Positions 37,008 to 53,325 are shown, counted from the stretch's first letter. The stretch is 64,000 nucleotides of DNA from Verrucomicrobiota bacterium (GCA_038744685.1 JBCDMB010000012.1:1-64000); one strand, 5' to 3'. A program made the numbers and translations. Notes: a model not told the origin generated them from the sequence alone.

Positions 37008-37436
37008 TCATTCCCCCGGAATTCTCATGTACATCCCCAGTAAATCCGCCGACTCCGCTTTGTTGAATCCAAACTTGTTGTAGAATTCCGGAGTGCCCTG
37101 CTCGGCGAAGAGACCCACAAAGGCCGTCTTAGGCGCATTCCTCTTCAGGAAATCGGCAAGCGATTCCATAATTAGGCTTCCTACTCCTTTACCTTGATGA
37201 TCTGGCAAAACAGCCACATCTGTCACCTCAAAGAAACAACCTCCATCTCCGATGATTCGTCCGATTCCAACTCTTTCATTCCCGTGATACGCTACCACAG
37301 AGAAAAGAGTGTTTGCCAGACCGACCGCGGCCGCCTCTTTGGACTTTCTCGATAGGCCAGCCTTTAGGCGAATAGCAATATAGTCCGTCACAGATGGAGT
37401 CTCTAGTCTTAGATCATAAACCATTCTCTGAGGCAT
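37008..37436 (-). CDS. GNAT acetyltransferase 1
   Basis: About 142 residues, with the acetyl-CoA motif A VTDVAVLPDHQGKGVGSLIMESL and C-terminal GTPEFYNKFGFNKAE. It resembles small GNATs that acetylate small amines, with the acceptor unknown. Starts at 37436 (MPQRMVYD) or 37424 are both possible, and an ATG at 37502 would add an atypical N-terminus. None has a clear Shine-Dalgarno sequence. The leftmost gene of the cassette-like array. Confidence 0.88.
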   Translation of the reverse strand: MPQRMVYDLRLETPSVTDYIAIRLKAGLSRKSKEAAAVGLANTLFSVVAYHGNERVGIGRIIGDGGCFFEVTDVAVLPDHQGKGVGSLIMESLADFLKRNAPKTAFVGLFAEQGTPEFYNKFGFNKAESADLLGMYMRIPGE

Positions 37437-37605
37437 CAACACAATTGGGAGAGAGAGGCTACCAAACTTGCTCGCAGAAGGGCAATCCCTGTGTCGATTC
37501 ATGCTTCTGGTTGCGTGCTAGGAAGAGCAGTTAAGAAAAGTCAAAATGCCACACGGAATGGAGGTCAGAGCCTTTCACCGAGTGGATGCTTCCGTCTTGT
37601 TCTAA

Positions 37606-37896
37606 AGGGCACTTCGATTCACCTACTTTGGACGTGGCGAGAGCAATTTTGGTTTTGAGCAAGGCGACGGCTCTGCTTGGCGGGCTAGTGGCCCGGCTGC
37701 GGAGCCGCAACGCGGCTCAAACCCAAAAGTGTCTCGCCCCGAAGGGGTTGCGGCAGCACCGGTTCCGGGCAGCGTTAGCGGAGAGGTCCGAGGGCCTCTG
37801 GCCCGCAGACCTCTCCGCAGTCTCGCCCTCCGCAGTCTCGCCCGGATTCCGGCGGTGCCGCAATCACGAGCCAAAGGAAGTTAATCGAAGTGCCCT
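37606..37896 (+). mobile_element. MITE-like element, copy 1 (291 bp)
   Basis: Bounded by inverted repeats starting AGGGCACTTCGATT, the left one reading ...CACCTACTTTGG and the right one ...AACTTCCTTTGG. It is flanked on both sides by AA, an apparent 2 bp target duplication. It is in the opposite orientation to the other three copies. The inside is rich in nested palindromes (GCGGAGAGGT...ACCTCTCCGC). It was inserted exactly at the stop codon of GNAT 2 and regenerates a TAG there. Confidence 0.85.
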
Positions 37897-38398
37897 AAAC
37901 TCCAGCATTGTTAAAGAGAATGACTTGCTGCTCACCATCCTCCGTGATCATTACTTGCTTTTCGAAATTTCCCGACGTGTATTCATCAACCACATTCTCC
38001 CAAAAGATCATTGATTTCTTGTTTTCCACGAATTGGTGAATCTCCCACGTTCCGGGAAACAGGTTGAATACTCTTACGGCTGCTCTTTGACCAATTCGCT
38101 GGCGCCTGAACGTCTTCATAACAAAGAACTCTGCTATCGTTTTTGCATTTGGATCCTTCGCAACCTCACAATAACTGTTCACCATGATGAATCCTGCGAT
38201 TCTTGATTCGACCATGATCCAGTAGGCATAACGGTCGGTTTCTGTCCGATAGTTGTCGAAATATCGGTATCCAAAACATCCATATTCGTTGACTTGATGG
38301 CCTGTGTATGGAGACAGCTCATATTCATAGAGCTCGAACAGCTGCCGAAGCACAGCCTTCTTACTCTCTGGAACTTCGACAAGGTCGTTCTTACTCAT
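37895..38398 (-). CDS. GNAT-like acetyltransferase 2
   Basis: A 167-residue protein with YAYWIMVESRIAGFIMVNS, AEFFVMKTFRRQRIGQRAAVRVF (motif A) and WEIHQFVENKKSMIFWENVV, a layout seen in GNAT proteins annotated as predicted acetyltransferases. The ATG at 38398 is used; the longer frame starts with TTG. Its stop codon TAG is formed by one host T plus the first two bases of the adjacent mobile element. Removing the element and one TT duplication restores the same TAG. Confidence 0.8.
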   Translation of the reverse strand: MSKNDLVEVPESKKAVLRQLFELYEYELSPYTGHQVNEYGCFGYRYFDNYRTETDRYAYWIMVESRIAGFIMVNSYCEVAKDPNAKTIAEFFVMKTFRRQRIGQRAAVRVFNLFPGTWEIHQFVENKKSMIFWENVVDEYTSGNFEKQVMITEDGEQQVILFNNAGV

Positions 38399-38432
38399 GT
38401 TTTTCAAAGAACCTCAACGTGTTCCGATTCAG

Positions 38433-39119
38433 CTAGATGGTGCCACCGCAATCCGGAGCACAATGCTTTGTTTTTGCATGGACTAGAATGCGCCTGCACT
38501 CAGGAAACCTTCTGATCGAAATATTTACCGTGTGAGGTTCGAGCCATTCGTGAAACTCCTCATCTGAGAAAAAGTGTTTAATCACCCGGAAGCGCTTACC
38601 TCCGGCGAGGCTCCGTTCCTGAAGGTGGTTTCCTTCCTCGTCGAACTTTCCACTGAAAGAACCTGAAACCGCAAGCTGGTCGATAAATACAATTGAGCTT
38701 CCCTCCGGAACCCTTTGGGTGATTCCGGAGAGAAAACCGGGAATTCTTGATTTGGGAACGTGGGCAAACCAATCAACCGCCATCACCATGTCAAAATCGC
38801 CTGAAATCGACCTCAAGTCATAGGCATCGGCTTGTTCCAGAGTGATTCGTTGCCATGGCAGCTCCTTTTTCCTCGCCTGTTCCAGGGTGGTCTCATTGTA
38901 GTCAGTTGCCGTAATCGAATCCGCATCGTCGCTAATCTGCCCCGTCCAGAAGCAGGGACCACATGCGAGTTCCAGGACCCGCTTCCTTTTTGCGATTTTC
39001 TTGAGCGCCCGAATTACAGGATGAAGCCCTTCGATCACGCTCGGGTCATCATAACCCATCGAAGAGTCATATTCGGAAGCACGTTGACCATAGTAGACCT
39101 GCATCTCTTGGACGATCAT
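38433..39119 (-). CDS. class I SAM-dependent methyltransferase
   Basis: A 228-residue protein. YYGQRASEYD at the N-terminus, motif I RVLELACGPCFWTGQI (about 47-62), ITATDYNE (motif II) and FDMVMAVDWFAHVP (motif IV) define a class I methyltransferase acting on a small molecule or natural product. Substrate unknown. The start lies 24 nt from the next gene's stop. It belongs to the minus-strand cassette-like series. Confidence 0.88.
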   Translation of the reverse strand: MIVQEMQVYYGQRASEYDSSMGYDDPSVIEGLHPVIRALKKIAKRKRVLELACGPCFWTGQISDDADSITATDYNETTLEQARKKELPWQRITLEQADAYDLRSISGDFDMVMAVDWFAHVPKSRIPGFLSGITQRVPEGSSIVFIDQLAVSGSFSGKFDEEGNHLQERSLAGGKRFRVIKHFFSDEEFHEWLEPHTVNISIRRFPECRRILVHAKTKHCAPDCGGTI

Positions 39120-39143
39120 CTCTTCTCACACAGGGGCGACGTG

Positions 39144-39668
39144 TCAGGATCGAGAAGACGAAGCTTCCGGATCTTGAACTACCGATCGGTTCGACCGAAT
39201 GGTCTTCTGTATCTTTATCTCAGATACGGTTTCGGAAACTACTTCAAACCCGTAGTTCCTGTAAAAACTCAACGCTCTTCCGTTGTTCTTGGTTACTTCG
39301 CCAATGACCTTTGAGAAGCCGTTGTTCTCAGCCCAAGCAAAAACTGTATCCATCATTTTCTTAGCGAGGCCAGAGCCCCTCAAATCCGGGGTAATCCAAA
39401 CCTGAAGCACTTCAGCTTCACCTTCTTTTTCTTCGCTTCCGTAGATTGCTGCAATGGCTACTGGCTCATCCTCGCGAAAGGCAATAAATGTCGAACGTGT
39501 AGAACCTTCCGCTGTGCTATCGGCCTGCTGACACCAACTTTCCGGCGAACGTTCTATGGCTGTTTCGTACGTCGAACAGAACGCATAAGGATCGCTCTTG
39601 AGCGCCGCGAGTCTCAGATCCCGAAAAAGAGCCCCTTCACAACGCTGGATTCTTCGGATGGTTAACAT
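39144..39668 (-). CDS. GNAT acetyltransferase 3
   Basis: A 174-residue protein beginning LTIRRIQRCEGALFRDLRLAAL, with VLQVWITPDLRGSGLAKKMMDTVF (motif A) and NNGRALSFYRNYGFEVVSE (motif B), close to ribosomal-protein-alanine or amine acetyltransferases. The ATG at 39668 is chosen over a TTG at 39698 that would lie inside the attC-like site just upstream. That site ends 4 bp before the start codon. Confidence 0.92.
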   Translation of the reverse strand: MLTIRRIQRCEGALFRDLRLAALKSDPYAFCSTYETAIERSPESWCQQADSTAEGSTRSTFIAFREDEPVAIAAIYGSEEKEGEAEVLQVWITPDLRGSGLAKKMMDTVFAWAENNGFSKVIGEVTKNNGRALSFYRNYGFEVVSETVSEIKIQKTIRSNRSVVQDPEASSSRS

Positions 39669-39671
39669 TTC

Positions 39672-39735
39672 TTTCAACGAACATCCAAGTTCAGCCAACC
39701 TACCTTTCGCAGTTGGCTGACGAACCTAGTTAGCC
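39672..39735 (-). other. attC-like site m (64 bp)
   Basis: On the + strand TTTCAAC...GTTAGCC brackets a perfect 9 bp inverted repeat (TCAGCCAAC / GTTGGCTGA). The site fills the space between the SdpI stop (TAA at 39730-39732, overlapped) and the start of GNAT 3 (3 bp away). AAC/GTT outer boxes, an inner stem and stop/start placement are the layout of integron attC sites. The outer boxes match RYYYAAC/GTTRRRY only partly. Confidence 0.55.
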
Positions 39736-40137
39736 GTTGTTCTCGTGGTCAATCTGCCGAGCCCTCGAGTAGCTGATCAAACAACTGGTCATCGGTGAAA
39801 TCACCAAGATGGCAGTTCCGATTGAGAAAAAGTTCTCCGGCTTCTGAATCAGACCGTAAACGCCGGACAGAAATATGGGAAGTGCCGAGACCAAAAGGGC
39901 TTTGCCTCCATACTCATTGATCTCAAACCACGCTTCTTCTGATTTGAATGACTGCGGAAAACGGACTCCGTAAAAGTGGTTCATAGGAACCTTCCGTAGA
40001 ATCAGTGGGATGCTAAGACCTGAAATCAAGATCGCGATTCCGATATTTACGAAGGCGTAGGTTTCGGGATTCATGAGTTTCGGAAAACGGAGACAAAGGA
40101 AAATCAGCGCTGTGACGATAGTGAGTTCGCTGATCAC
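39730..40137 (-). CDS. SdpI/YhfL-family membrane protein
   Basis: A 135-residue protein with three to four membrane helices and the SdpI signature VPMNHFYGVRFPQSFKSEEAWFEINEYGGKALL. SdpI of Bacillus is an immunity/signalling protein, and many homologues are uncharacterised. Typical small cargo of mobile cassettes. Its TAA stop overlaps the attC-like site m. Confidence 0.82.
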   Translation of the reverse strand: MISELTIVTALIFLCLRFPKLMNPETYAFVNIGIAILISGLSIPLILRKVPMNHFYGVRFPQSFKSEEAWFEINEYGGKALLVSALPIFLSGVYGLIQKPENFFSIGTAILVISPMTSCLISYSRARQIDHENNG

Positions 40138-40165
40138 AGCGCAATCCCGGAGTTAATTCCTTCCT

Positions 40166-40198
40166 CTGTTTACGGACTGAGAAGCTGTTCGTAAACAG
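40166..40198. other. inverted repeat upstream of the SdpI gene
   Basis: CTGTTTACG...CGTAAACAG: 9 bp arms around a 15 bp loop, 29 bp upstream of the SdpI start. There is no T-run on either strand, so an operator or recombination hairpin is more likely than a terminator. Confidence 0.45.
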
Positions 40199-40268
40199 GT
40201 AGCTGGCCTCTTAACCTCAATCTGGTCCACCAAAGTCTTTGTGAAAGTGGGAGATCCAAGAGAGACGG

Positions 40269-40318
40269 CTCCATCGCAGCGCCGCATTGCGGCAATCGCG
40301 AAGCGATGGATCCAACGA
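40269..40318. repeat. repeat family B, right-end fragment (B6)
   Basis: Contains GCGCCGCATTGCGGCAATCG and GCGAAGCGATGG, the hairpin-rich right end of family B (compare 51000-51040). Only about 50 bp are present. It lies just 3' of the GNAT 4 gene. Confidence 0.6.
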
Positions 40319-40324
40319 AACGAA

Positions 40325-40882
40325 TCACTCGCCCCTTGAAGCGATTACGCGGTTCCGCTCCTTATCCCCCGGCTGTTTTTCGATCGAGTAGACATGATCA
40401 GGATAGTCATATCCTTCTAAAAAAGCCTCTTTTTCGAATTCCATACCAATCTTCCTAGCCACCCGAATCGAAGCCGTATTATCTGGATCGACTAAAGCAA
40501 TGAGCCTTTCTAGACCGACTACATTGAATCCATATTCACGAACTGCTAAGGCGGCCTCAGTCGCGAAACCAAATCCCCATCTAGAACGTGCTAACCGGTA
40601 GCCGACTTCAACTTCTTTCTGCCCGCAGATATCAGGAAAACAGGATAACCCACAATAACCGATCACTTCCTGTCCACTTTTCTCAACCACAGCCCAAAGT
40701 CCGAATCCAAAGCTTGAATAATTATTGCTGCACTTTGCCAGCCAAGCCCGGGTCTCTTCTCGCGATTTAATCCCACGACTAAACTTCATGACTTCGGCAT
40801 CTGCGAAGATATACGCCAATGAATCGATATCGGCGGTCTCAAACTCCCGAAGCAATAATCGTTCTGTTTCGATTATTGTCAT
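40325..40882 (-). CDS. GNAT acetyltransferase 4 (RimJ/RimL type)
   Basis: A 185-residue protein starting MTIIETERLLLREFETADIDSL, with EVEVGYRLARSRWGFGFATEAA (motif A) and YGFNVVGLERLIALVDPDNTAS, typical of the RimJ/RimL subgroup that acetylates N-terminal alanines or small amines. The start at 40882 gives the canonical N-terminus. Upstream codons overlap the PhyH 3' end. Confidence 0.93.
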   Translation of the reverse strand: MTIIETERLLLREFETADIDSLAYIFADAEVMKFSRGIKSREETRAWLAKCSNNYSSFGFGLWAVVEKSGQEVIGYCGLSCFPDICGQKEVEVGYRLARSRWGFGFATEAALAVREYGFNVVGLERLIALVDPDNTASIRVARKIGMEFEKEAFLEGYDYPDHVYSIEKQPGDKERNRVIASRGE

Positions 40883-40913
40883 TGATGGAAACGGTGAGAA
40901 GAGGCGCGGCGCA

Positions 40914-41612
40914 TTAACGATGTTGTCCCGAAGCGACTGGTTCGCTTTGTGAGGGTTCATGCCAAGACAACCTATCGTCTAGGCTGTTTAGTCGTGCATA
41001 TTCGAAATGCAGAATCCTTCTTCGTTTGGGTGATTCAGATCTCTTAGATGAGTGAAGGATCAAAGGAGACATTAACAGAACGTCGCCTGCGCCACATGCA
41101 CATATCGCTTCTGAAGCGTTCACATGTGAGAGAACCTCTCGCGATTCTATCTTTCCTCTCTTGTGGGACTCAGGGATGACTCTAAGCGCTCCGTTTTTCT
41201 GTGGTGTGTCGTCTAGGTGAATTCTGATCGTCATCATTCTTTCGAGAACTTCAACAGGCGGTTGGACATGGACAGAACCATCTTTGGTCGACCAAGGGCC
41301 ATATCCTTTAATTTCGCATTTTTCTTCGACCGTGATCGTGAGGTCCTGATGCCAAGTAACTGGCCAATTCTCCTGTGGAGTCTTGTCAAAGAGGATACTC
41401 CTTACAGGTGATAGTCCTTTGGAGAGGAGATTCTGAAGCCGCACTGATTTCGCCAGTTGGTTGAATTCCTTCGATTTGCTCCGAATGTGCCGAACGCAAG
41501 CCGAACCTTCGTTCTTCGAAAGCCGATCTGCCTCTTCCCGCATGGCTTCCACTTCGTCCTTGGTGAAAACCTCACGGACGATCTCAAACCCTTGTGAATG
41601 GAAGTCGTTCAT
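40914..41612 (-). CDS. phytanoyl-CoA dioxygenase (PhyH) family protein
   Basis: A 232-residue Fe(II)/2-oxoglutarate oxygenase with WHQDLT (His and Asp ligands), a C-terminal LMSPLILHSSKRS (second His) and RRRILHFEY (Arg for 2-oxoglutarate). N-terminal FEIVREVFTKDEVEAMREEA is typical. Substrate unknown. The frame extends to 41681 only because the inverted repeat of element copy 2 supplies an ATG. The native start is MNDFHSQG at 41612. Confidence 0.88.
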   Translation of the reverse strand: MNDFHSQGFEIVREVFTKDEVEAMREEADRLSKNEGSACVRHIRSKSKEFNQLAKSVRLQNLLSKGLSPVRSILFDKTPQENWPVTWHQDLTITVEEKCEIKGYGPWSTKDGSVHVQPPVEVLERMMTIRIHLDDTPQKNGALRVIPESHKRGKIESREVLSHVNASEAICACGAGDVLLMSPLILHSSKRSESPKRRRILHFEYARLNSLDDRLSWHEPSQSEPVASGQHR

Positions 41613-41674: not shown

Positions 41675-41989
41675 AGGGCATTTCGATTAACCTCCTTTGG
41701 CTCGTGATTGCGGCACCGCCGGAATCCAGGTGAGGCTGCGGAGAGGTTTGCGGGCCAGAGGCCCTCGGACCTCTTCGCTAACGCTGCCCGGAACCGGTGC
41801 TGCCGCAACCCCTTCCCTTCGGCAGGCTCAGGGCCTTGAGTCTTATCGAAAGGAGGGGCGAGGCACTTTTGGATTTGAGCCGCGTTGCGGCTTCGCAGAT
41901 GGGCTTCTAGCCCGCCAAGCGAAGCCGTCGCCTTGCTCAAAACCAAAATTGCTCTCGTCACGTCCAAAGGAGGTTAGTCGAAGTGCCCT
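41675..41989 (-). mobile_element. MITE-like element, copy 2 (315 bp)
   Basis: Ends AGGGCATTTCGATTAACC and (right) its inverted partner, GGTTAGTCGAAGTGCCCT. It is flanked by GA on both sides (apparent 2 bp duplication). It lies between the methyltransferase-like gene at 42034 and the PhyH gene, 62 bp upstream of the PhyH start, so it may have displaced that gene's promoter or recombination site. It carries a 24 bp insertion relative to copy 1. Confidence 0.85.
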
Positions 41990-42033
41990 GAAGTTAAAAA
42001 CTCGAAAAGCGAAGGCAGGTGCTCAGTACCACA

Positions 42034-42720
42034 TCAATCGAATTGTCTGATAAAAAGAGCCTCATTACCATTTAACTGTAGCTCGTAGTCAACCCGCCTG
42101 ACCTCAGCTGACATGCCTGAGCCCCGTAGGTAGTCGATTATACCCTCCAGGTATTTGGATTTACCCTGCTTCAATGTGAGGACAGGGAAAATTCTGACTT
42201 CTTCCGCAATCCTGCACATTTCAAGTATCGATGACAGGTGAAACTCGTAGGAAAAATGATCAGAATAGAGGAACAGGAAGTGGGAACAAAGAGCCAAATC
42301 GAACTCTCGATCAGCGTATTCTACTGTTGGTAGCTCTTTCAGCTCATATCTTTCCTCTCTTTTGCCTTTTTCAAAGTCATTTAGGAACAGCCTCAAGGCT
42401 CTGCGCCGATTGAGAAGGAGATTCTCTGGGTCGCGATGATAGGCCCACGTCCAGGAATCCAGACTTGCCCTCACTTGGTTGATTACAAGATCGACGCTTT
42501 CTTCAAAACGGGCAGCGATTTCCTCGCCCGAGAAGCGATATAATGGATCGAAAGAAACAACGCGGTTCCCGATTTCACTCATTTCAGCATTGAAGCTAGC
42601 CGGGCCATCTCCACATCCAACAATCCTTTTCCTCAAGTCACTATCTGAGAGAGAAAACATCAGCCGATATTCATCCAGTGATCTTCCCCAGGGAACGACT
42701 TTTTCAAGTGATAATGGCAT
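42034..42720 (-). CDS. SAM-methyltransferase-like protein
   Basis: A 228-residue protein. VPWGRSLDEYRLMFSLSDSD, then RIVGCGDGPASFNAEMSE (glycine-rich motif-I position), VVSFDPLYRF (acidic end of strand 2) and FDLALCSHFLFLY (motif IV) give a class I methyltransferase fold of a family common in small mobile clusters. The target is unknown. Precedes element copy 2 in the transcription direction. Confidence 0.72.
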   Translation of the reverse strand: MPLSLEKVVPWGRSLDEYRLMFSLSDSDLRKRIVGCGDGPASFNAEMSEIGNRVVSFDPLYRFSGEEIAARFEESVDLVINQVRASLDSWTWAYHRDPENLLLNRRRALRLFLNDFEKGKREERYELKELPTVEYADREFDLALCSHFLFLYSDHFSYEFHLSSILEMCRIAEEVRIFPVLTLKQGKSKYLEGIIDYLRGSGMSAEVRRVDYELQLNGNEALFIRQFD

Positions 42721-44104: not shown

Positions 44105-44754
44105 CTAGCCGTTGCCTCTATCGACTGGTTCAGACGGTTGGCCGATAAACATGAGGGTTTTTGTGTAGGGGATAGTCACATGGACTTCTCTCATTCCATA
44201 CGGCTGTTGGAATGGCTCACGTATTTTTAGGGCACTTCGATTAACCTCCTTTGGCTCGTGATTGCGGCACCGCCGGAATCCGGGTGAGGCTGCGGAGAGG
44301 TTTGCGGGCCAGAGGCCCTCGGACCTCTCCGCTAACGCTGCCCGGAACCGGTGCTGCCGCAACCTCCTAGGGGCGAGGCCCTTTTGGATTTGAGCCGCGT
44401 TGCGGCTTCGCAGACGGGCTTCTAGCCCGCCAAGCGAAGCCGTCGCCTTGCTCAAAACCAAAATTGCTTTCGTCACGTCCAAAGGAGGTTAATCGAAGTG
44501 CCCTTTAAAAATCCCTTCTTCTCTTTCAGTAAGCTCCATACCCTATCGATGTCATCTACTGTCATGTAAAAGCTCATTTCTCCTATATCCTCTCCAGCTT
44601 TTTGGATATGAATCTCAATCCTCCCAAGGCCCACGATGCAGTAGTCCGGTGAATCCATAATGACTTCAAACTTGAGTATGTCGGTGAAGAATTCCTTCGT
44701 TTCCGAAACACTGTATGATGGGACCATCGGGCTTATACGTGTCGCCTTATACAT
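44105..44754 (-). pseudogene. VOC/glyoxalase-family gene split by element copy 3
   Basis: The N-terminal part (44754-44505) reads MYKATRISPMVPSYSVSETK ... SLLKEKKGFLK. The C-terminal part (44228-44105) reads IREPFQQPYGMREVHVTIPY ... SEPVDRG. Deleting the 276 bp element plus one copy of its 2 bp duplication joins them in frame into about 123 residues, the normal size of a VOC protein, with the typical PYGMRE-x(3)-P C-terminal motif. As it stands, translation from the start ends in the element after ten foreign codons. The function was probably small-molecule binding or resistance, as for many VOC cassettes. Confidence 0.82.
44229..44504 (-). mobile_element. MITE-like element, copy 3 (276 bp)
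   Basis: Inverted repeats AGGGCACTTCGATTAACCTC / GAGGTTAATCGAAGTGCCCT extend over 26 bp without mismatch. TT flanks both ends on the + strand. It is inserted in the coding region of a VOC gene, and the frame-restoring reconstruction independently supports a 2 bp target duplication. The shortest copy, it lacks a segment containing CCTTCCCTTCGG and GGCTCAGGGCC present in copies 2 and 4. Confidence 0.9.
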
Positions 44755-45737: not shown

Positions 45738-45825
45738 TTCTAACCGCCTAGTTGTGGTGGAATCGCGGCGTCTCAAGAATGAAGCGCTGAGCGCGAAAAG
45801 AATTGAGACCACCGATTGGTTAGCT
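45738..45825 (-). other. attC-like site j (88 bp)
   Basis: On the + strand TTCTAAC...GTTAGCT (CTAACC/GGTTAG pair perfectly). The inner boxes GTCTCAA/TTGAGAC are a perfect 7 bp inverted repeat around GCGCTGAGCGC. The right end abuts the TAG stop of the lipoprotein gene. The inner core is shared with sites g and b, so these three form a subfamily. Confidence 0.55.
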
Positions 45826-46183
45826 ATTCCTCTCTGTGAATTTTGTGGACAACCGCGAAACCGTCACCGTCTTTATTTGTGTAGAAGTCAGCGGCGTAGG
45901 CATATGAATCGTCTTCCGGAGTGTAATTCCTTTCTATTTTCTCTCCTCCGACGGTAACATAAAAGGAGATGCTAGACCCATAGTGCCCGTTCGGTCCACC
46001 TTGCGACTTAAACGGCCCTTCACTTTCGCCAAAGCTCTCGAGAAAATCAAAACCAGATGAGCCTCTTCCGGATTCGGCATCACTTTTACTTACCTCGAAT
46101 TCGACTCTATCGGCGCAAGCAACAAGGCAAAATACAACCAGAACACTACCAAAGATTTTTAATTTCGTTTTCGTTTTAGCCAA
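45824..46183 (-). CDS. small lipoprotein of unknown function
   Basis: 119 residues if translated from TTG 46183, giving a textbook lipoprotein signal (short KTKTKLK n-region, GSVLVVFCLVAC lipobox). An ATG at 46225 would place about 14 extra residues in front of it. The mature part is rich in Gly, Ser and Asp and has no recognised domain. The TTG overlaps the right box of attC-like site i, as expected if the cassette boundary lies there. Confidence 0.65.
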   Translation of the reverse strand: MAKTKTKLKIFGSVLVVFCLVACADRVEFEVSKSDAESGRGSSGFDFLESFGESEGPFKSQGGPNGHYGSSISFYVTVGGEKIERNYTPEDDSYAYAADFYTNKDGDGFAVVHKIHREE

Positions 46184-46244
46184 CGTCGAAGCGAACCCTT
46201 CCCTGACCGAATCGGCGGTCAACATCACGGAGGCACGGTTCTAT
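46178..46244 (-). other. attC-like site i (67 bp)
   Basis: On the + strand AGCCAAC...GTTCTAT with an inner hairpin TGACCG...CGGTCA. The left box overlaps the likely TTG start of the lipoprotein gene. CGACGTTGGCTAAAA on the minus strand parallels CGACGTTAGTAAAA at site c. Confidence 0.42.
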
Positions 46245-46302
46245 CAAATTCCGATTCAAGATGCAAGAACTCAAGAATCTTGTCGGGGATAGATACCTCG
46301 GT

Positions 46303-46701
46303 TTATTCGCCTCCAGATGTTTTGAAAAGGCCGGGGAAAAACTTTCTCACCAGAACAGTGTCAAACAGAGTCAAAACCACCGCTCCAACAATAGAGATTC
46401 CGATGAAAGCTAACACCGCTTTCCCAATGGAAAAGAAAAAGAAAACTCCAATACTCATTGAGAACAGCAAAAGTATAGTGAACATGTATAGCCCAATAGC
46501 CAGCTGAGCTCTCCGGTCTAGCGATCTATCCAATGCACTAAAAACTACTGCTAACAACCCACATAAGCTCAAAGAGATTGATAACGAGTGGCCATCTTCG
46601 AACAAAATATATGGGCAGATGACCATCGCACTGAAGAAGACAAATAAGATTGGCGCAATCAGACTTCGCTTTGCTCGAGTTTTTGGTTCTTTTGGGTTCA
46701 T
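46303..46701 (-). CDS. small polytopic membrane protein, unknown function
   Basis: A 132-residue protein starting MNPKEPKTRAKRS, with four hydrophobic segments (for example LIAPILFVFFSAMVICPYIL and AVLAFIGISIVGAVVLTLF). No family recognised. The open frame continues upstream through repeat B1, whose own conserved frame is in phase, but the ATG at 46701 is the natural start. A minus-strand member of the cassette-like series. Confidence 0.6.
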   Translation of the reverse strand: MNPKEPKTRAKRSLIAPILFVFFSAMVICPYILFEDGHSLSISLSLCGLLAVVFSALDRSLDRRAQLAIGLYMFTILLLFSMSIGVFFFFSIGKAVLAFIGISIVGAVVLTLFDTVLVRKFFPGLFKTSGGE

Positions 46702-46730
46702 TTGAAGCCAATGTGGAGGTGGTAGGCGCG

Positions 46731-46945
46731 TGGGTCGAACAGTAGCCCCGACATCGTCTGGGGAAAAGGAAAATCCCGGAGTCGCCTCGTTCTCCTGGTT
46801 GCAGCCTACGGAGCAGGCCGGAAACAGAAGCAGGAGCTCTTGACCGCCATCTAGCCCGCCGAAGTTTCTACGAAGATGGAAACTCGAAGAGCAACGGCTG
46901 TTGCTCAGTGCCGCAATGCGGCCATCGTGAAGCGATGGACTTAGC
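46731..46945. repeat. repeat family B, copy B1
   Basis: About 215 bp similar to B2 (49822-50056) and B3 (50811-51040). Shared landmarks are TAGCCCCGACAT, CTCCTGGTTGC, GAGCTCTTGACCGCCATCT, CGAAGAGCAACGGCTGTTGC and the terminal hairpin region GCGATGGAC. GTTAAGC, matching the GTTRRRY core, ends it. It lies directly 5' of the membrane-protein gene, whose upstream open frame it forms. Confidence 0.75.
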
Positions 46946-47010
46946 GTTAAGCGTGGCAAACGGAGGAAGGCATCCGCTTTCCGGGGCCGAGGCTACGAAT
47001 TTGTTCTGTG

Positions 47011-47373
47011 CTATTTTGCAAGAGCCACTGCGAAATCTGGATTGAGCGGATTAATATCCACACGCCTCTCGTGAGCAATGACAACTAAATCCATATCTTC
47101 CATAGGAATGGCTCCAAGCAAGATCTCGTCACCCATGACAATCGCCCCGACATAGGCACGACGGTTATTAAACCTAGTTTCGATAGGCCCAACGTAAGGA
47201 ACCATCTGTTTGCTACCGTCGGCAAGTGTGACCTCCTTTTGACCGCCTGCTCTTAGTTCAAGCTGTAGGCAAACATGCTCCGGTATCGCAAGATAGACGG
47301 AACCTGTGTCCGCAAGTGCCTCTGCCTCAATAGGTTCTTTTTCTGGTAGACTCGGATTGCGCAACAAAAGCAA
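47011..47373 (-). CDS. retroviral-like (clan AA) aspartic protease
   Basis: About 120 residues with EALADTGSVYLAIPEHV (catalytic DTG), LADGSKQMVPYVGPIETRF and ILLGAIPMEDMDLVV, the pattern of small bacterial clan AA proteases. The start is doubtful: the frame begins with TTG 47373 immediately after a stop and no ATG is available, so the first few residues of the usual N-terminus may be missing. It could be slightly truncated. Confidence 0.78.
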   Translation of the reverse strand: MLLLRNPSLPEKEPIEAEALADTGSVYLAIPEHVCLQLELRAGGQKEVTLADGSKQMVPYVGPIETRFNNRRAYVGAIVMGDEILLGAIPMEDMDLVVIAHERRVDINPLNPDFAVALAK

Positions 47374-47439
47374 TCAACAAGATAGTCCCATATCCGAGAA
47401 ATATCAATCTTATGTCTGTGGGGAAGTACTTTCTTCCGA

Positions 47440-47505
47440 TTGTAAAGGTGTCTCAGGACCGGAACGCGGAGAGTGAGTGGAATTGAGACTACCCTCTGGT
47501 TAGCA
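47440..47505 (-). other. attC-like site g (about 66 bp)
   Basis: GTGTCTCAGG...TTGAGACTA (inner boxes TGTCTCA/TGAGAC) followed by GTTAGCA directly before the TAA stop of the SMI1/KNR4 gene on the + strand. The left outer box is not recognisable. The inner core matches sites j and b. Confidence 0.45.
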
Positions 47506-47979
47506 TTATTCCGCAAGGATTAAGAGATCGAGAAATACCTCAAATGAATCCGCAATGGGATACTCATTCTTGTGAATGCGATCCGCATCAGTGGGAATTC
47601 CAATGCTCAGGCAACCAGCTACGTCGTCCTCGTGGTCCCAGAAAATCACCTTACCGTAACGTAGTCCCATTCTTCCTAAGCAGAATTGGTTGCCAAAAGA
47701 ATCGAATCCCACGGGAACAAGATCTGGGGAAACTCTACCCTCGTAGATCTCCCTTGCTTCAAATATCTCAGGTATTGTGTAAAGCTGTAGCCCATAAAGA
47801 TCGCCGCCTGGGATCTTTTGTATTCTCATTGGATCCACCAAGCACTCTGGTTCGTATGCACCGTCGTGTTCTTCTATAAATAACCGAAACTCTCGAGGAA
47901 TTCCCTCCGGAAAAACCTGGTTAAGTCTCTCTATGTCCTGCGCTGATGGTGGACCACTTAATTCGTGGAATTCAATCAT
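47506..47979 (-). CDS. SMI1/KNR4 family protein
   Basis: A 157-residue protein with DIERLNQVFPEGIPREFRLFIEEHDGAYEP and a C-terminal RIHKNEYPIADSFEVFLDLL, characteristic of the SMI1/KNR4 (SUKH) superfamily. These proteins often act as immunity proteins to polymorphic toxins, but no toxin gene is adjacent. Start at ATG 47979, 1 bp after the GTTGACA box of attC-like site f. Confidence 0.85.
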   Translation of the reverse strand: MIEFHELSGPPSAQDIERLNQVFPEGIPREFRLFIEEHDGAYEPECLVDPMRIQKIPGGDLYGLQLYTIPEIFEAREIYEGRVSPDLVPVGFDSFGNQFCLGRMGLRYGKVIFWDHEDDVAGCLSIGIPTDADRIHKNEYPIADSFEVFLDLLILAE

Positions 47980-48033
47980 TGTCAACGTGGAGACCAGAGA
48001 ATAACCCCGCAAGGCTCGGTCGTTCGGTTGATT
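47980..48033 (-). other. attC-like site f (54 bp)
   Basis: On the minus strand AATCAAC...GTTGACA (TCAAC/GTTGA complementary) with inner boxes GACC/GGTC. The site runs exactly from the TAG stop of the 48034 gene to the ATG of the SMI1/KNR4 gene. Size and placement fit an integron attC site. Confidence 0.5.
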
Positions 48034-48360
48034 CTAGATTTGGCGGAACGGTTCACTGGTTGTCTGTGTCGTCTTGATATCATACTTTGGAAGTAGGTAA
48101 ACGATACCAACGCCTATAGGTCCGGCAAAAGAGAGGAGAAACCATGATGTGTGTCGCCCTCTATCTCTGATAACCCGCCAAAAACCTGTGTAATAGCATA
48201 TAAGTCCGAGTATCCAGGTTGCATTTACTATAACCTTTAAAACCTCTGGGTGTCTCTCGGATTCAAAGAACTGCCTCCCAAGGACTATTCCGCCCAAAAG
48301 AGCTAACCCCACAAATAGAAGGAAATTTGAGGGGAGTCCGTCGTCTCTGACAGTTTTCAT
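48034..48360 (-). CDS. small membrane protein, unknown function
   Basis: A 108-residue protein with three hydrophobic segments (FLLFVGLALLGGIVLG, VIVNATWILGLICYYTGFW, WFLLSFAGPIGVGIVYLL) and a polar tail. No family recognised. Flanked on both sides by attC-like sites (f and e). Confidence 0.55.
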   Translation of the reverse strand: MKTVRDDGLPSNFLLFVGLALLGGIVLGRQFFESERHPEVLKVIVNATWILGLICYYTGFWRVIRDRGRHTSWFLLSFAGPIGVGIVYLLPKYDIKTTQTTSEPFRQI

Positions 48361-48363
48361 TCC

Positions 48364-48466
48364 TTCTAATCACTTCAAGGCTAGGCGACCCGGCCCGAGG
48401 AGTCCAGCGTTCTGTCGATTGTCGATTTCACAGGCGATTACACCGGAGTGCCTACGCCGTTTGTTC
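48364..48466 (-). other. attC-like site e (about 103 bp)
   Basis: Homologous to site c: both read (minus) GCGTAGGCA...CGCC-GTGAAAT-GACAATC...GTCGCCTAGCCT. TAGGC...GCCTA are the inner boxes. It lies between the stop of the 48470 gene and the start of the 48034 gene. The left outer box is degenerate (TCTAATC on the + strand). Confidence 0.5.
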
Positions 48467-48469
48467 TCG

Positions 48470-48760
48470 TTATCTTTGCTCAACCGGAAGAGGCGGTGTT
48501 CCACCACGTATTGAATGTTGCAAATCTATACTCTTCCCTGTCCGACTAGTTCCAAGTTCGACTCGACCACCGAGATCGACTGAAACTCCTTGGGGGCCGA
48601 ACAATCTGGTTTGTATTCCAGGTTCGAGTGATATTTCCAATCGAGATTTTTCTCTTATTGCAGATGCGTGAGTCTTTATAGCATCTGAAAGCAGCAGGGC
48701 TGCGACGACAATTCCTACTGACAGGATGATCAAGGGGATAAGTGTATTTTTCATATTCAT
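48470..48760 (-). CDS. single-pass membrane protein, unknown function
   Basis: A 96-residue protein with one N-terminal membrane helix (LIPLIILSVGIVVAALLLS) and a soluble tail without recognised motif. Tandem ATGs (48760, 48754) are possible starts. Cassette-like placement between site e and repeat B4. Confidence 0.5.
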   Translation of the reverse strand: MNMKNTLIPLIILSVGIVVAALLLSDAIKTHASAIREKSRLEISLEPGIQTRLFGPQGVSVDLGGRVELGTSRTGKSIDLQHSIRGGTPPLPVEQR

Positions 48761-48770
48761 TAGAGAATGC

Positions 48771-48895
48771 GGTGCAGAGACCCACAGGAATTTGACTATA
48801 GCCCCGACATCATCGGAGTGGAAGGATAATCCCGGACTCGCCTCTTGCTCCTCGTTGCGAATACGGCCATAGCGAAGCGATGGACGAAACGTTCA
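48771..48895. repeat. repeat family B, internally deleted copy B4
   Basis: About 125 bp: the left end (TATAGCCCCGACATCATCGG, CCCGGACTCGCCTC) is joined directly to the right end (GGCCATAGCGAAGCGATGGAC), missing the centre found in B1-B3. It lies between the HxlR gene 3' end and the 48470 gene. Confidence 0.65.
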
Positions 48896-48949
48896 TTGGA
48901 CGCACTCGATCCATCGCGTCGTCTTCCCCCGATCTGTTATATCTCTGTT

Positions 48950-49306
48950 TCACCCAGTTCCCGAGGCGTCGGGAAATGTTTCGGTATCGTCAATGTTCTG
49001 CAGGCCCCAATTGGCAATGTTTTGCACGATCGGCCGGAGAGACTCCCCACGTTCGGTAAGGAGGTAATTAAATCTTCGTTTATCGTCTATGTCGGGCTCT
49101 CTCTTCACCATGCCCAACTCAGTGAGCCGGCGTAATCGGTGACTCAGAATGTTCCGGGCGATTCGCTCTGGCGCATTTCTAAGTTCGTCGAATTGCGTGG
49201 CCCCGTGAAGAAGATCACGCACGATCAGCAGGGTCCACTTATCTCCCAAAATATCCAAAGTGCACGCGACAGGGCACCCCGATCTACGATTTTTGTTCAA
49301 ACTCAT
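48950..49306 (-). CDS. HxlR-family winged-helix transcriptional regulator
   Basis: A 118-residue protein. Start MSLNKNRRSGCPVACTLDIL, then GDKWTLLIVRDLLHG, FDELRNAPERIARNILSHRLRRL (recognition helix) and VKREPDIDDKRRFNYLLTERG (wing) are hallmark HxlR features. It diverges from a cupin gene, with a palindromic operator candidate between them, so it probably controls itself and the cupin. The conserved N-terminal cysteine may sense redox or electrophiles. An upstream TTG extension is not needed. Confidence 0.93.
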   Translation of the reverse strand: MSLNKNRRSGCPVACTLDILGDKWTLLIVRDLLHGATQFDELRNAPERIARNILSHRLRRLTELGMVKREPDIDDKRRFNYLLTERGESLRPIVQNIANWGLQNIDDTETFPDASGTG

Positions 49307-49345
49307 GCTTTTAGGTTGCAAATTTAAACTGAAATACGAATATAG

Positions 49346-49360
49346 GTTGCATTATGCAAC
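49346..49360. promoter_or_regulatory. candidate HxlR operator palindrome
   Basis: GTTGCATTATGCAAC, a perfect 6-3-6 palindrome in the 62 bp gap between the divergent HxlR and cupin starts. A half-site, TAGGTTGCA, is repeated at 49312-49320 and 49343-49351. The position suits repression of both genes. Confidence 0.7.
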
Positions 49361-49368
49361 TTTAATCG

Positions 49369-49818
49369 ATGAGTGATCCAATCCAGATATTTGAAGCAGG
49401 TTCTCTCAAAGGCTGGAGAGACTTTCACTTCTCCATTCCAGGTCTCCCAACAAAGTCGAAGCAATTCCTGAAGAGTGAACTTGGACTCACCAGCATGGAG
49501 GTCTCACTGAATGCCCTTCGAGTCGGCGAAGATATGCCCTTCGTTCATAAGCACAGAGAGAATGAAGAACTGTATTTGTTCTTATCGGGCTCTGGAGAAT
49601 TCCAAGCAAACGGAGAGGTCTATCCCGTGAAAGACGGTACTTGCGTCAAGTGTTCGCCAGACGTTCGCAGGACTTTTCGAAACACTGGGGAAGCAGAGAT
49701 GCTCTTCATCGTCATCCAAGCAAAAGACAATTCGTTGCTTGATCACTTCACGATCCAAGATGGAGAGCTGGTTGATGAACTTCCCAAATGGTCCGCTTCC
49801 AACGATTCTTCGACATAA
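49369..49818 (+). CDS. cupin-domain protein
   Basis: A 149-residue single-domain cupin. PFVHKHRENEELYLFLSGSG is motif 1 (His, His, Glu ligands) and CVKCSPDVRRTFRNTGEAEMLF is motif 2 with an atypical ligand set. The only plus-strand gene between 37 and 53 kb, paired with the divergent HxlR regulator. It may be an enzyme or a small-molecule sensor responding to the same signal. Confidence 0.88.
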   Translation: MSDPIQIFEAGSLKGWRDFHFSIPGLPTKSKQFLKSELGLTSMEVSLNALRVGEDMPFVHKHRENEELYLFLSGSGEFQANGEVYPVKDGTCVKCSPDVRRTFRNTGEAEMLFIVIQAKDNSLLDHFTIQDGELVDELPKWSASNDSST

Positions 49819-49821
49819 TAC

Positions 49822-50056
49822 GGCGCTGAGGCGCACAGGGGTTGGACTGTAGCCCCGACAATGTCGGGGCGGCAAGGGCAATCCCTGAGTTGCCTCATGC
49901 TCCTGGTTGCGGCCTGCGGAGCGGTCCGGAAGCTGGGCATGAGCTCTTGACTGCCATCTGGTCCGCCGAAGTCTCTACGGAGGTGGAAGTTCGAAGAGCA
50001 ACGGCTGTTGCTCAGCGCCCCATTACGGTCATCGCGAAGCGATGGACGCAACGTAG
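49822..50056. repeat. repeat family B, copy B2
   Basis: About 235 bp filling the gap between the cupin stop and the 50070 gene. It begins CGGCGCTGAGGCGC, contains GTTGGAC (matching GTTRRRY), the palindrome CCCCGACAATGTCGGGG and CGAAGAGCAACGGCTGTTGC, and ends GCGAAGCGATGGACGCAACG. On the minus strand it keeps an open frame similar to those of B1 and B3. Confidence 0.78.
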
Positions 50057-50069
50057 AGAGGAGGCGCGC

Positions 50070-50795
50070 CTATGGCGTTGCCTCCCTCGCCTTGTTCGGA
50101 TTTGGTTTGTTAACTTCAATTTCAATCACCTTGGCTCGTTCATCATCGAATTTGATTCTATAGGACCAACCATTACTTGAGCTAGAGGATTTGCCAAGAA
50201 TTGGCTGATCAAATACCTGGGGATAGTCCCTATTCAGTTCTTCGAATGTGTCTCCAACCTCAACTCTTTCAATAACTGCATAGAGTGCTTCTTGTCCGAT
50301 TGCTCCCTCGGCAATCACATGTGTAGTGTATGGAAAGTAAGCTATCCCGATTGGTAGTAGAACAAAACGAACAAGGGGAAAGAAAAGAATTGGTGACAAC
50401 CAAGCTACGAGTGTGGGAACAAAATTCTTTACTTGGAGTAGCCAAAAAACGCTTCCGGCAATCGCGCCTATCAAAACGGGCCACCATATCAGAAAGATTA
50501 TTCCGAATTCAAACAAGGCTGCGACCAGAAGGAACGAAATCGTAGTCGCTAGAGTCCAGTAGATCACAGAGACCCAAAATTTTGTTTCTTTTCCTTTTCC
50601 TATTTTTAGCGCTAGCGGTAAGCCGACAACCAGCCAGCCGAGAAAAGTGAATATGAGGGGCCAGAACAGAAAAAACTCGAAGTCGGTTATGTAGCCGAAT
50701 CCGGTGGTGCGGAATTGCATCCACGATAGGAACCCGATGAATGGGAGGAGCCAGCCAATGAAGACGGCAAAAAAGCTATGTCCGGCTCGTTTCAT
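50070..50795 (-). CDS. polytopic membrane protein, unknown function
   Basis: A 241-residue protein with about five to six hydrophobic segments in the first 160 residues and a soluble C-terminal part of about 75 residues (VIERVEVGDTFEELNRDYPQVF). No family recognised. It lies between repeat copies B2 and B3, so the gene plus one repeat forms a unit resembling a cassette. Confidence 0.55.
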   Translation of the reverse strand: MKRAGHSFFAVFIGWLLPFIGFLSWMQFRTTGFGYITDFEFFLFWPLIFTFLGWLVVGLPLALKIGKGKETKFWVSVIYWTLATTISFLLVAALFEFGIIFLIWWPVLIGAIAGSVFWLLQVKNFVPTLVAWLSPILFFPLVRFVLLPIGIAYFPYTTHVIAEGAIGQEALYAVIERVEVGDTFEELNRDYPQVFDQPILGKSSSSSNGWSYRIKFDDERAKVIEIEVNKPNPNKAREATP

Positions 50796-50810
50796 TCTTT
50801 ATGCGAATGC

Positions 50811-51040
50811 TACGCTGAGGCGCGTTGGGATTGAACCGTAATGAGCTCACTCATGGAGGTTCAAGCCCGGAGTCGCCTCATGCTCCTGGTCGCGGCCTGC
50901 GGAGCGGGCCGGAAGCTGGAGCAGGAGCTCTTGACCGCCATCTAGTCCGCCGAAGTTTCTACGAAGGAGGAAGCTCGAAGAGCGACCGTTGTTGCTCAGC
51001 GCCGCATCGCGGCCATCGCGAAGCGATGGACGCAACGTAG
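50811..51040. repeat. repeat family B, copy B3
   Basis: About 230 bp, similar to B1 and B2 over the central and right parts (CTCATGCTCCTGGTCGCGGC, GAGCTCTTGACCGCCATCTA, GCCATCGCGAAGCGATGGAC) but with a different left segment, which suggests recombination between copies. The hairpin CCATCGCTTCGCGATGG (minus) is common to all complete copies. Confidence 0.78.
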
Positions 51041-51092
51041 AAGTGTGAAGACGGCGGCGCTGGCCGGCGTTGATCACTCCTACAATTTAAAT

Positions 51093-51893
51093 CTATTCTT
51101 TTGAATTGTATTCGTCGAGTGCTTTTAATGCAGTCTCATTACCTTCGTTAGCAGCTTTGATTAAACCCTGTGAAGCTCCCCGCCAAAGTGCTCTAGATTT
51201 ATCGTCTGATATAACGGCAGCTAAAAAATCAATCGCTTCCTGATTTCCTTGTTCTGCAGGATATTGCAGCGCAAAGACTGTAGATGAAAGAAGGAGTCCA
51301 TATCGTTTGTGATTGAGTAGGACTTCCAAGCACTTTCGAGACCCCATACCAGCGCCAATACCAAAAGCGTTGGCTGTAAAACTCCTTATTCTAGATTCGC
51401 CTGTAGCACTAATCAGTACTTCTACAGCCTGATCATTACCTTCCCCCGCAGCTTCACCTAAAGGTGTGAAAAATGATCGCATTATTTCAAGATTCTCAAG
51501 AACGCGATCACGCTCTTCGTCGTAATCGATACCTTCATAGAGTATTTCTCGATAATCAGAGACTATTTGTAAAACAAGCGGATTTCCCTCTAATGCTAGT
51601 TTCAAGAGCTTTCTGAAATGCTGCTTACTCGGTCTCTTTACATCTCTGAGCTTCTGAACTTCAATCGTATTGAATTTAAGCTCTTTCAGAAAGTCCTGAT
51701 CTTGCTTGGAAAGCGTGGAAATCGGAATTTCGAATATTTGAAAATCCGATTCTCTCCTTATTTTTACTGTTTCGTCATTCTGGGAAAGGTATTCCGCCTC
51801 TAGTTTTTGACCTTCCGCGTTCGTCCATTCTCGTGCATCGAGGCAGAGCGAAAGAAGGGCTGGAAGGAGCCAGATAGTTGTTCGTGATCTCAT
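51093..51893 (-). CDS. exported SHD1-domain protein
   Basis: A 266-residue protein. A signal peptide (TTIWLLPALLSLCLDA) is followed by an SHD1-like domain (REWTNAEGQKLEAEYLSQND ... IPISTLSKQDQDFL, about 20-72), a domain frequent in secreted Planctomycetes and Verrucomicrobia proteins. The rest is helical, with repeated AAxxGNxxAxxxL-type units (for example GEAAGEGNDQAVEVLISA, PAEQGNQEAIDFLAA), probably an ankyrin- or HEAT-like array. Function unknown. Its ATG lies 3 bp after attC-like site c. Confidence 0.72.
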   Translation of the reverse strand: MRSRTTIWLLPALLSLCLDAREWTNAEGQKLEAEYLSQNDETVKIRRESDFQIFEIPISTLSKQDQDFLKELKFNTIEVQKLRDVKRPSKQHFRKLLKLALEGNPLVLQIVSDYREILYEGIDYDEERDRVLENLEIMRSFFTPLGEAAGEGNDQAVEVLISATGESRIRSFTANAFGIGAGMGSRKCLEVLLNHKRYGLLLSSTVFALQYPAEQGNQEAIDFLAAVISDDKSRALWRGASQGLIKAANEGNETALKALDEYNSKE

Positions 51894-51896
51894 TTT

Positions 51897-51996
51897 TACT
51901 AACGTCGAGGCTAGGCGACTCGGCCTTAGACATCCAAACTTCTGTGGATTGTCAATTTCACGGGCGAGTTCATCGGGTTGCCTACGCTGGTTGGAT
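51897..51996 (-). other. attC-like site c (100 bp)
   Basis: On the minus strand ATCCAAC (perfect RYYYAAC) - CAGCG spacer - TAGGCAAC ... GTCGCCTA - spacer - GTTAGTA, then AAAATG, the start of the SHD1 gene. Inner boxes pair with one mismatch. The best match in this window to the R''-L''-L'-R' architecture of an integron attC site. Confidence 0.62.
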
Positions 51997-52240
51997 ATGG
52001 GCCTGGTTACTAAGGATCAGTCACGATATTCTGTACAGGGCCGTTGCCTTCATTGCAATCTGTTTCTCACCACGGAGAACACGGAAAACGCAGATCCAAT
52101 AGTTCATTTTTCTCTTCGTTCTCCCTTCCGTGCTTTCTGAGCGATCCGTTGTTCAGATTCTTTTCTTTCCCATACGTCAAAGGTCATACGACGAAGGAAA
52201 GCGGAGCTTCCGATAGTTATGTGCACTGGCTTGTTGTGTG
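51997..52240. other. intergenic, possible degenerate cassette
   Basis: 244 bp without a convincing gene. It contains ACCACGGAGAACACGGAAAA and CTTCCGTGCTTTCTG, words like those that border GxxExxY genes elsewhere, and a hairpin GGAAGCTCCGCTTTCC next to the following stop codon. Confidence 0.35.
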
Positions 52241-52768
52241 TTAGTAGTAGTGAAGCGTCCCATTAGGATTAGGTTCATTAAGACTTAATGGAGTTATGCC
52301 GCAGGGCAAATGTCCATTCTGATATACTTCTAATAGTCTGTCATGAAATCGAGGGATGCGAAACTGTGAAAATGCTATCTCTTGTAGAGCAGTGACTATA
52401 TCCCATCCAATCGCTTCGATCAGCTTGCTTCCCAGGTTCAAATCCGAAATTCTTCCTTCGACCTTGGGAGCAATATGGACGTCAAAAAAACCTCTGAGGG
52501 CGCGAGCGGAGTTATTCCATTCCGTATAGTTTTGAGAATGTCTGGACGACAGGAAGCCGGTAACTTCGTTACGCATTTCAAGGCGGAAATCTGTCCAATC
52601 ATCTGACATTGCCATGCTTATGGCTTCATCTCGGTCTTGAACATTTATGGCGTCTTTGATGCTGTCCTTCTGACCAATTCGGTTGAGCCAATCAATTCCA
52701 GCAATCCTTTCCAATTCTTCTTCAGGAAAGGGCTTTAGATAATACAGTGGTCTTGGATAGGTAAGCAT
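52241..52768 (-). CDS. hypothetical protein
   Basis: A 175-residue soluble protein (starts MLTYPRPLYYLKPFPEEELE, ends GTLHYY) with a helical central part. No family recognised. Its ATG lies 7 nt after GTTGGGT, the core box of attC-like site b, typical cassette spacing. Confidence 0.5.
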   Translation of the reverse strand: MLTYPRPLYYLKPFPEEELERIAGIDWLNRIGQKDSIKDAINVQDRDEAISMAMSDDWTDFRLEMRNEVTGFLSSRHSQNYTEWNNSARALRGFFDVHIAPKVEGRISDLNLGSKLIEAIGWDIVTALQEIAFSQFRIPRFHDRLLEVYQNGHLPCGITPLSLNEPNPNGTLHYY

Positions 52769-52775
52769 TATTTTT

Positions 52776-52847
52776 ACCCAACGCCGAGATGTCTCAAGAC
52801 TGAAGCGCGGAGCGCGTAATGAAGTTTATACGACTGCCTAGTTCTAC
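52776..52847 (-). other. attC-like site b (72 bp)
   Basis: On the minus strand GTAGAAC...GTTGGGT, the latter a perfect GTTRRRY. It spans exactly from the TAG stop of the 52844 gene (overlapped) to just before the next start. The inner part GCGCTCCGCGC sits in an imperfect stem including GTCTTGAGAC, shared with sites j and g. Confidence 0.58.
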
Positions 52848-53248
52848 TTCTCACTTGTCCATCCGTCTGATTTTTGGATAGCGGTAAAAAGCATTTCGAT
52901 AGCTTCAGTCTCCGAGTACGCTCTACCCGAAACACGAGCTTCACTCCATGGTTGTGATTCTCTAGGCATCAAGTAATCGATACGGTATTCATTTGGAGTC
53001 GTTCCAAAGACCGAGACATACCACGGAGACTCATATGTGTCTTCTTCTAAAAAATAGAGTTTAGCGTGAGATGTAAGGCCAAACGCAACCGTTTCATTTC
53101 TACTCTTTTTTAAGTTTCGGAGTAGGCTAAGCATTGCCTCTCCCATCTTCTTGGAAGCTTCACTTTCTGATCTGGCAAATTCTGTGTAGAATTCTTCGAG
53201 ACTCTGACGTTTTTGGTCTTTGCAGCGAGATAGATTCATTTCTTTCAT
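52844..53248 (-). CDS. hypothetical protein
   Basis: A 134-residue soluble protein from ATG 53248 (MKEMNLSRCKDQ), or 143 residues from 53275. It ends with a small alpha/beta segment (YRIDYLMPRESQPWSEARV). No family recognised. The rightmost member of the cassette-like series. Confidence 0.5.
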   Translation of the reverse strand: MKEMNLSRCKDQKRQSLEEFYTEFARSESEASKKMGEAMLSLLRNLKKSRNETVAFGLTSHAKLYFLEEDTYESPWYVSVFGTTPNEYRIDYLMPRESQPWSEARVSGRAYSETEAIEMLFTAIQKSDGWTSEK

Positions 53249-53263
53249 AGATTGCGCCGTTGA

Positions 53264-53325
53264 AACGCGCAACACTTGGACTATAGCCCCGACATGACCG
53301 GGGTGGAAGGAAAATCGCGGAGCCG
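53264..53325. repeat. repeat family B, left-end fragment (B5)
   Basis: GGACTATAGCCCCGACATGA followed by GGTGGAAGGAAAATCGCGGA, matching only the left part of family B. It marks the right border of the accessory region, 5' of the 52844 gene. Confidence 0.55.

Follow-up and report, generated by a model that had tools for sequence, protein, structure and literature searches.

A cluster of attC sites away from any integron-integrase in a genome of the Verrucomicrobiota

The window, i.e., the 64-kb stretch of DNA that was analyzed, comprises positions 1-64000 of contig C12 of a bacterial genome of 3,643,384 bases (56 contigs, 97.8% complete, 0% contamination). Two intact integron integrases are encoded elsewhere in this genome, on contigs C5 and C21. 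The integrase of the genome shares 70-77% identity with integrases from Puniceicoccaceae, Opitutales, and Opitutia genomes, and the host is therefore taken to be a member of the Verrucomicrobiota of the Puniceicoccales/Opitutales type. Between positions 37008 and 53275, a first-pass annotation made from the sequence had described an integron-like array of about 22 cassettes without an integrase. Small accessory open reading frames (ORFs) are indeed found there, nearly all of them on the minus strand, the exception being a cupin ORF on the plus strand (49369-49818). The five GNATs, SdpI, PhyH, and SMI1/KNR4 named in that annotation are each backed by Pfam; of its methyltransferases, one is backed and the second, at 42034, is without a Pfam match at an E value of 0.001, as is the supposed VOC protein (44473). 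The integrase gene, intI, is correctly stated to be missing from the window, and a cassette array without an integrase is supported for 45.75-52.85 kb by models of the recombination site attC that were trained outside the window.

Detection of attC sites relied on our own covariance models and on BLAST. Model R1, with a 4-nt loop, failed on long sites, and therefore two further models were built, namely R2 for long sites, trained on six sites of contig C5 only, and R3 for short sites, trained on sites of C5, C51, C10, and C30 and on none of the window. R2 matched the 64-kb window with 66.5, 57.7, 53.8, and 28.8 bits, the next best score being 12.6; the R3 matches reached 57.4, 49.0, and 46.6 bits, followed by one at 50044 (13.9 bits), which is an R2 site, and by the next new one at 11.0 bits. 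Models derived from sites elsewhere thus recognize the window, and they do so in the same orientation as the cassette ORFs: seven model-supported attC sites lie within 7.1 kb (45755-52848), all on the minus strand, and six of them are 80-89% identical in BLAST comparisons to C5 attC sites adjoining the integrase. An Rfam scan of the window gave zero matches.

Best preserved among the long sites is the b-type site at 51897-51999 (R2, 66.5 bits; BLAST, 83% over 89 bp to a C5 attC). The second b-type site, at 48367-48468 (R2, 53.8 bits; BLAST, 83%), has its R' core altered to GTG, and the long c-type site at 47980-48081 (R2, 57.7 bits; BLAST, 83% over 90 bp) carries ATC, not AAC, in its R'' core. 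The f-type comprises the short site at 52774-52848 (R3, 49.0 bits; BLAST, 89% over 35 bp to a C5 attC), in which AAC and GTT are present while the L'' arm is mutated and the stem arms are mismatched; the site at 47433-47506 (R3, 46.6 bits; BLAST, 82%), with the R' core altered to AAT; and the leftmost well-supported site, at 45755-45826 (R3, 57.4 bits; BLAST, 80%), with a disrupted R' core. The site at 50046-50099 (R2, 28.8 bits; R1, 25.4 bits), which the first-pass annotation had overlooked, has both AAC and GTT intact and overlaps the end of ORF 50070-50795.

Six of the eight attC-like palindromes proposed initially are confirmed by BLAST and covariance models, some with other ends: 45738-45825 becomes approximately 45755-45826, its outer AAC being coincidental, and 47980-48033 extends to 48081. 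Outer AAC...GTT boxes, ascribed to all eight, hold for few of them, since the majority of the seven supported sites have, at the homologous position, ATC, AAT, GTG, or a gap in place of one core triplet; the motif at 51897-51999 that was reported as a perfect RYYYAAC sits 3 nt inside the true inverse core. Model support is lacking for the palindromes given as 39672-39735 and 46178-46244. The latter (46178-46250, minus strand), without a match to R1, R2, or R3, is probably an attC remnant, because its L'-R' half, the only recognizable part, is retained (TTCGACGTT; TTCGACGTTGGC) and its GTTGGCT is complementary at 6/7 positions to the inverse core AGCTAAC of the next site. A strict AAC-GTT descriptor, which found six of the nine C5 sites, was discarded, as it performed at chance level in the window because the cores there are decayed.

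In a profile search of the whole genome, TIGR02249 exceeded its curated cut-off at two loci, C5:5056-5985 (373.6 bits) and C21:58028-58963 (364.6 bits), and nowhere on C12. The C21 integrase lies less than 1 kb from a contig end, and no attC was seen adjoining it. The ORF of the C5 integrase starts at 4789 and encodes 399 amino acids, in which TIGR02249 is matched over its full length; residues 90-398 match the IntI of Vibrio cholerae (2a3v), the best solved relative, with an E value of 4e-66. At its N-terminus the protein carries an extension of about 90 residues. Extensions of about 90-130 residues precede the TIGR02249 domain in the integron integrases of the lineage (L009:4789-5988, L010:6026-7351, L028-L040), and matches to these from outside the Verrucomicrobiota begin mostly near query residue 90.

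From the C5 intI, an array of small ORFs runs divergently to the contig start; it has nine attC sites, and an attI junction, GTTCTAC, lies some 220 bp upstream of intI. The order of elements in the attC sites, in cassette orientation, is R''-spacer-L''-loop-L'-spacer-R', and most of them have an extra L'' base three bases into the arm. The attC architecture, i.e., an imperfect palindrome with an unpaired spacer and an extra L'' base on the 5' arm, is thus displayed by the C5 sites; the window sites, being their homologues, inherit it, with damaged arms in 52774-52848. The start of a C5 cassette (the bases that follow the G of the upstream core) complements the inverse core of the same cassette at 7/7 positions in eight of nine cases and at 6/7 in the ninth. 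Such an exact complement is expected only for units that were once circles closed at attC. With intI and attI beside it, the array on C5 qualifies as a genuine integron, and it is on C5, not in the window, that a complete integron is found.

The pairing of cassette ends was followed in 134 attC sites of three genomes (the present one, G001, and G002; loci L009, L011-L017, L113-L141), which form 78 neighbouring pairs. Cassette start and inverse core match at 7/7 positions in 30 of these, the null expectation being a mean of 1.5 and a maximum of 6 in 200 draws. In the genome under study, 21/36 pairs match at all three flanking bases, compared with 5.5% of random pairs, and a match within one and the same site occurs in 2/65 sites only. 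This end pairing is the strongest proof that the units are cassettes. It also bears on the proposal that the palindromes of the window are ordinary intergenic hairpins, such as terminators or repetitive extragenic palindromic (REP)-like repeats, in a horizontally acquired island unrelated to any integron. Several sites do fold only moderately, some are without AAC/GTT, and the region contains miniature inverted-repeat transposable elements (MITEs) and a repeat designated D1, which speaks for the proposal. Yet pairing of the kind left by former circles largely refutes the proposal for this site family, the window sites show 80-89% identity to sites abutting an IntI with an attI junction, and models trained elsewhere match, within the window, these sites only; ordinary hairpins are a very improbable explanation.

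The same 134 sites point to a second core. Of their R' triplets, 92 are GTT and 19, in 14 different heptamers, are GAT; no other triplet is present more than five times. Among the 35 pairs in which four flanking bases are matched, 23 combine GTT with AAC and seven GAT with ATC, and five show other single changes; the crossed combinations GAT-AAC and GTT-ATC do not occur among flank-matched pairs (Fisher, 5e-7), the partner of GAT being either ATC (seven) or a decayed ATC (one). Seven of the 30 perfect 7/7 pairs have a GAT/ATC core. As three of the seven GAT/ATC cassettes belong to one family, the ORF-less GATATGG cassettes, about five cases count as independent. A GAT/ATC core that is matched at both ends speaks against decay, because point decay would strike the ends independently. 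IntI1 is known to tolerate variation at the triplet's second base and to cut GAT at secondary sites (PMC10127599), while the AAC/GTT of attC sites has been described as nearly invariant (PMC2674596); the literature searched, whose coverage is incomplete, yielded no matched GAT/ATC class among natural cassettes. The chances are about even that the integrase of this genus would accept two cassette cores, GTT/AAC and a self-consistent GAT/ATC, and that GAT cassettes would be heritable and mobile rather than products of decay. If GAT/ATC cores are active, the GTT core of attC would not be invariant, and detectors keyed to AAC/GTT may miss some cassettes.

The extent of 37008-53275 given initially is too wide. 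The supported array covers 45.75-52.85 kb, its right edge lying perhaps at about 53300, with possible remnants to the left as far as 37-40 kb. Between 37.0 and 45.6 kb, where all of the GNATs are encoded, no R1, R2, or R3 score rises above chance, and the DNA is filled by three MITE copies and ordinary accessory genes; the evidence for cassettes amounts to one weak site and one remnant of D1. The weak site (39672-39735, minus strand), located behind the SdpI ORF, is an attC-like hairpin whose ends are AAC and GTT; it folds and is unconfirmed by R1, R2, R3, or BLAST. Given this hairpin and a diverged D1 copy upstream, the SdpI region may represent one old cassette. That the entire 37008-53275 segment forms one array of about 22 cassettes, for which the uniform strand and gene type could be quoted along with the SdpI ORF, its D1 remnant at the start and the hairpin behind it, is unlikely in the face of 37.0-45.7 kb without a model match above chance.

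Compared with C5, the sites of the window are eroded. AAC and GTT are both kept in 7/7 C5 sites of the R2 alignment and, as judged by eye, in all nine C5 sites, the two short ones included, as against 1/4 of the window R2 sites. Among the f-type window sites with intact arms, none has intact cores: R' is disrupted at 45755 and the core is AAT at 47433, and at 52774 it is the stem that is damaged. Since window cores and stems are largely decayed, the array is probably mostly immobile.

R2 gave 67 matches genome-wide at E values up to 10, and the genome has about 65 attC sites. At an E value of 0.001, it matched 61 times in this genome and 36 and 22 times in two congeners, and it found no match in 26/35 genomes of the order. 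Arrays of attC sites are located at the ends of C5, C10, C15, C23, C32, and C47, and another occupies a large part of C51 (9.9 kb); interior clusters occur on C11, C12, C16, and C30, and solitary sites inside C2, C6, C9, C24, and C28. The solitary site at C6:110240 lies in an insertion of about 2.2 kb (positions 1878-4128 of L117, which is C6:108001-112500), together with a PEP-CTERM gene; on one side of the insertion is a gene for a response regulator and on the other a nuclease-like gene, and in both congeners these two genes are adjacent. Integron integrases over the curated cut-off number five in congener G001 (C118, C132, C22, C95, C80) and two in G002.

In integrons, IntI binds the folded bottom strand of attC and cuts in the R' core, and a cassette circle inserted at attI or at another attC gives rise to a head-to-tail array, the polarity of which is set by the attC orientation. 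Because the genome has two IntI and, on C5, an attI with nine attC sites, because the window sites belong to the same subfamilies with the same polarity, and because the window and other arrays have one family of ORF-less cassettes in common, the segment 45755-52848 is very probably a cluster of attC sites lacking integron-integrase (CALIN), that is, a group of cassettes that were captured in the past by an integron integrase from which they are now separated. Some observations weigh against this. Within the window, cassette start and inverse core match at 6/7 positions at one pair only, which is expected of decayed sites and is no proof; the position of the array is that of the assembly, with conserved genes on its right; and a clean empty site is not found in the congeners, because the left flank is not conserved there, though the right flank is.

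The CALIN would have been deposited by the integrase of this genus, either through off-target insertion in trans or through rearrangement of a main array, and would since have become mostly immobile. Rearrangement would make the window array the broken-off or rearranged distal part of one large chromosomal integron (C5, C10, C15, C23, C32, C47, C51), with which it shares attC subfamilies and the ORF-less cassette; many of these arrays stop at contig ends, as if a long repetitive array had broken the assembly. The window array, however, is interior to a contig of 95 kb, conserved genes lie on its right, and its sites are more decayed than those of C5; this origin is conceivable at somewhat less than even chance. 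Insertion by IntI in trans, to which we give the same standing, just short of even, would liken the array to the solitary attC sites within C2, C6, C9, C24, and C28; the attC-bearing insertion on C6 is missing from both congeners, and IntI1 uses GNT secondary sites (PMC10127599). That insertion, however, holds a non-cassette gene too and is therefore not a clean cassette insertion, and no empty site is demonstrable for the window.

The ten cassette ORFs, called on the minus strand, are 45824-46228, 46303-46700, 47011-47373, 47506-48012, 48034-48360, 48470-48760, 50070-50795, 51093-51893, 52241-52768, and 52844-53275. Products in the supported array include SMI1/KNR4 (Pfam) and one weak match to a clan AA aspartic protease, the other ORFs being unassigned. 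No relatives of the window cassette proteins were found in the other arrays fetched, and models of defence systems gave no convincing match to the ten proteins. A further, ORF-less cassette of the GATATGG family (51893-52190, minus strand), recognized by matches of its non-coding body, ends in the attC at 51897-51999. This body matches C28 (73% over 134 bp, E value 6e-14), C32 (84% over 44 bp), and C10 (80% over 49 bp), and the cassette aligns with ORF-less cassettes on C10, on C11, and in two congeners. A 7/8 core match between 52774-52848 and 51897-51999 had been considered as a cassette and was dropped, since in the alignment 51897-51999 ends the ORF-less cassette with its own inverse core.

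D1 is a non-coding element of 244 bp (50806-51049, minus strand), whose beginning coincides with that of a cassette (TTGCGTCC) and whose end falls immediately ahead of an ORF. The window contains additional copies at 49879-50057, 46772-46940, and 40142-40317, with a partial one at 48864-48892; a D1-related end segment is present at 48750-48850 and 53235-53335, and copies outside the window are located at C24:32184-32305, C30:10040-10189, and C10:103977-104013. The element is strongly foldable, begins at cassette starts (TTGCGTCCATCGC), and stops directly before the initiation codons of ORFs that are unrelated to one another; except for one 24-bp match, it is confined to the window array or to the vicinity of attC on C10, C24, and C30. 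A gene was rejected, there being no codon-phase bias and, in the copy at 40143, stops in the shared frame. D1 may represent a leader common to several cassettes or an ORF-less cassette that has become fused. Outside the cassettes, a MITE-like element bounded by terminal inverted repeats of 26 bp (AGGGCACTTCGATTAACCTCCTTTGG) occurs at 44226-44510, 37600-37899, 41675-41989, and 57225-57544; across the genome, it has about ten near-full copies. The right flank (53403-55918, minus strand) consists of a gene for a 465-amino acid protein and a prfB-like gene; the pair is kept in four relatives, two of them congeners, in which no array gene adjoins it.

By the definition of IntegronFinder, a CALIN is a cluster of attC sites lacking an integron-integrase (PMC9024848). 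The window has two or more attC sites spaced by less than 4 kb, with consistent polarity, cassette ORFs, and no adjoining integrase, and it is thus an element of known kind, in a phylum from which integrons are already reported: 'The Natural History of Integrons' (PMC8618304) lists the Verrucomicrobiota, to which the host belongs, among the integron-bearing phyla, although it merely lists the phylum. A description of integrons for this genus was not found in the literature searched. From other CALINs the window differs in its decayed sites, in the two integrases elsewhere in the genome, in its Verrucomicrobiota host, and in having been detected with our own models. Intact and decaying arrays together provide a little-studied genus of the Puniceicoccales type with a shared gene pool of considerable size. 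For the specialist, the value lies in the matched GAT/ATC cores and in the comparison of decayed with intact sites, since the same site families, intact on C5 and decaying in the window of one genome, render the loss of cassette mobility measurable. The sedentary chromosomal integrons of Vibrio, Xanthomonas, and Treponema resemble C5, which likewise has an intI, an attI, and small genes of unassigned function in a divergent array, and they resemble the genome in its approximately 65 attC sites, those of C5 being related within the genome. In contrast to them, this genome has several attC subfamilies instead of one, arrays scattered over many contigs, some matched GAT/ATC cores, and an N-terminal extension of about 90 residues on its IntI.

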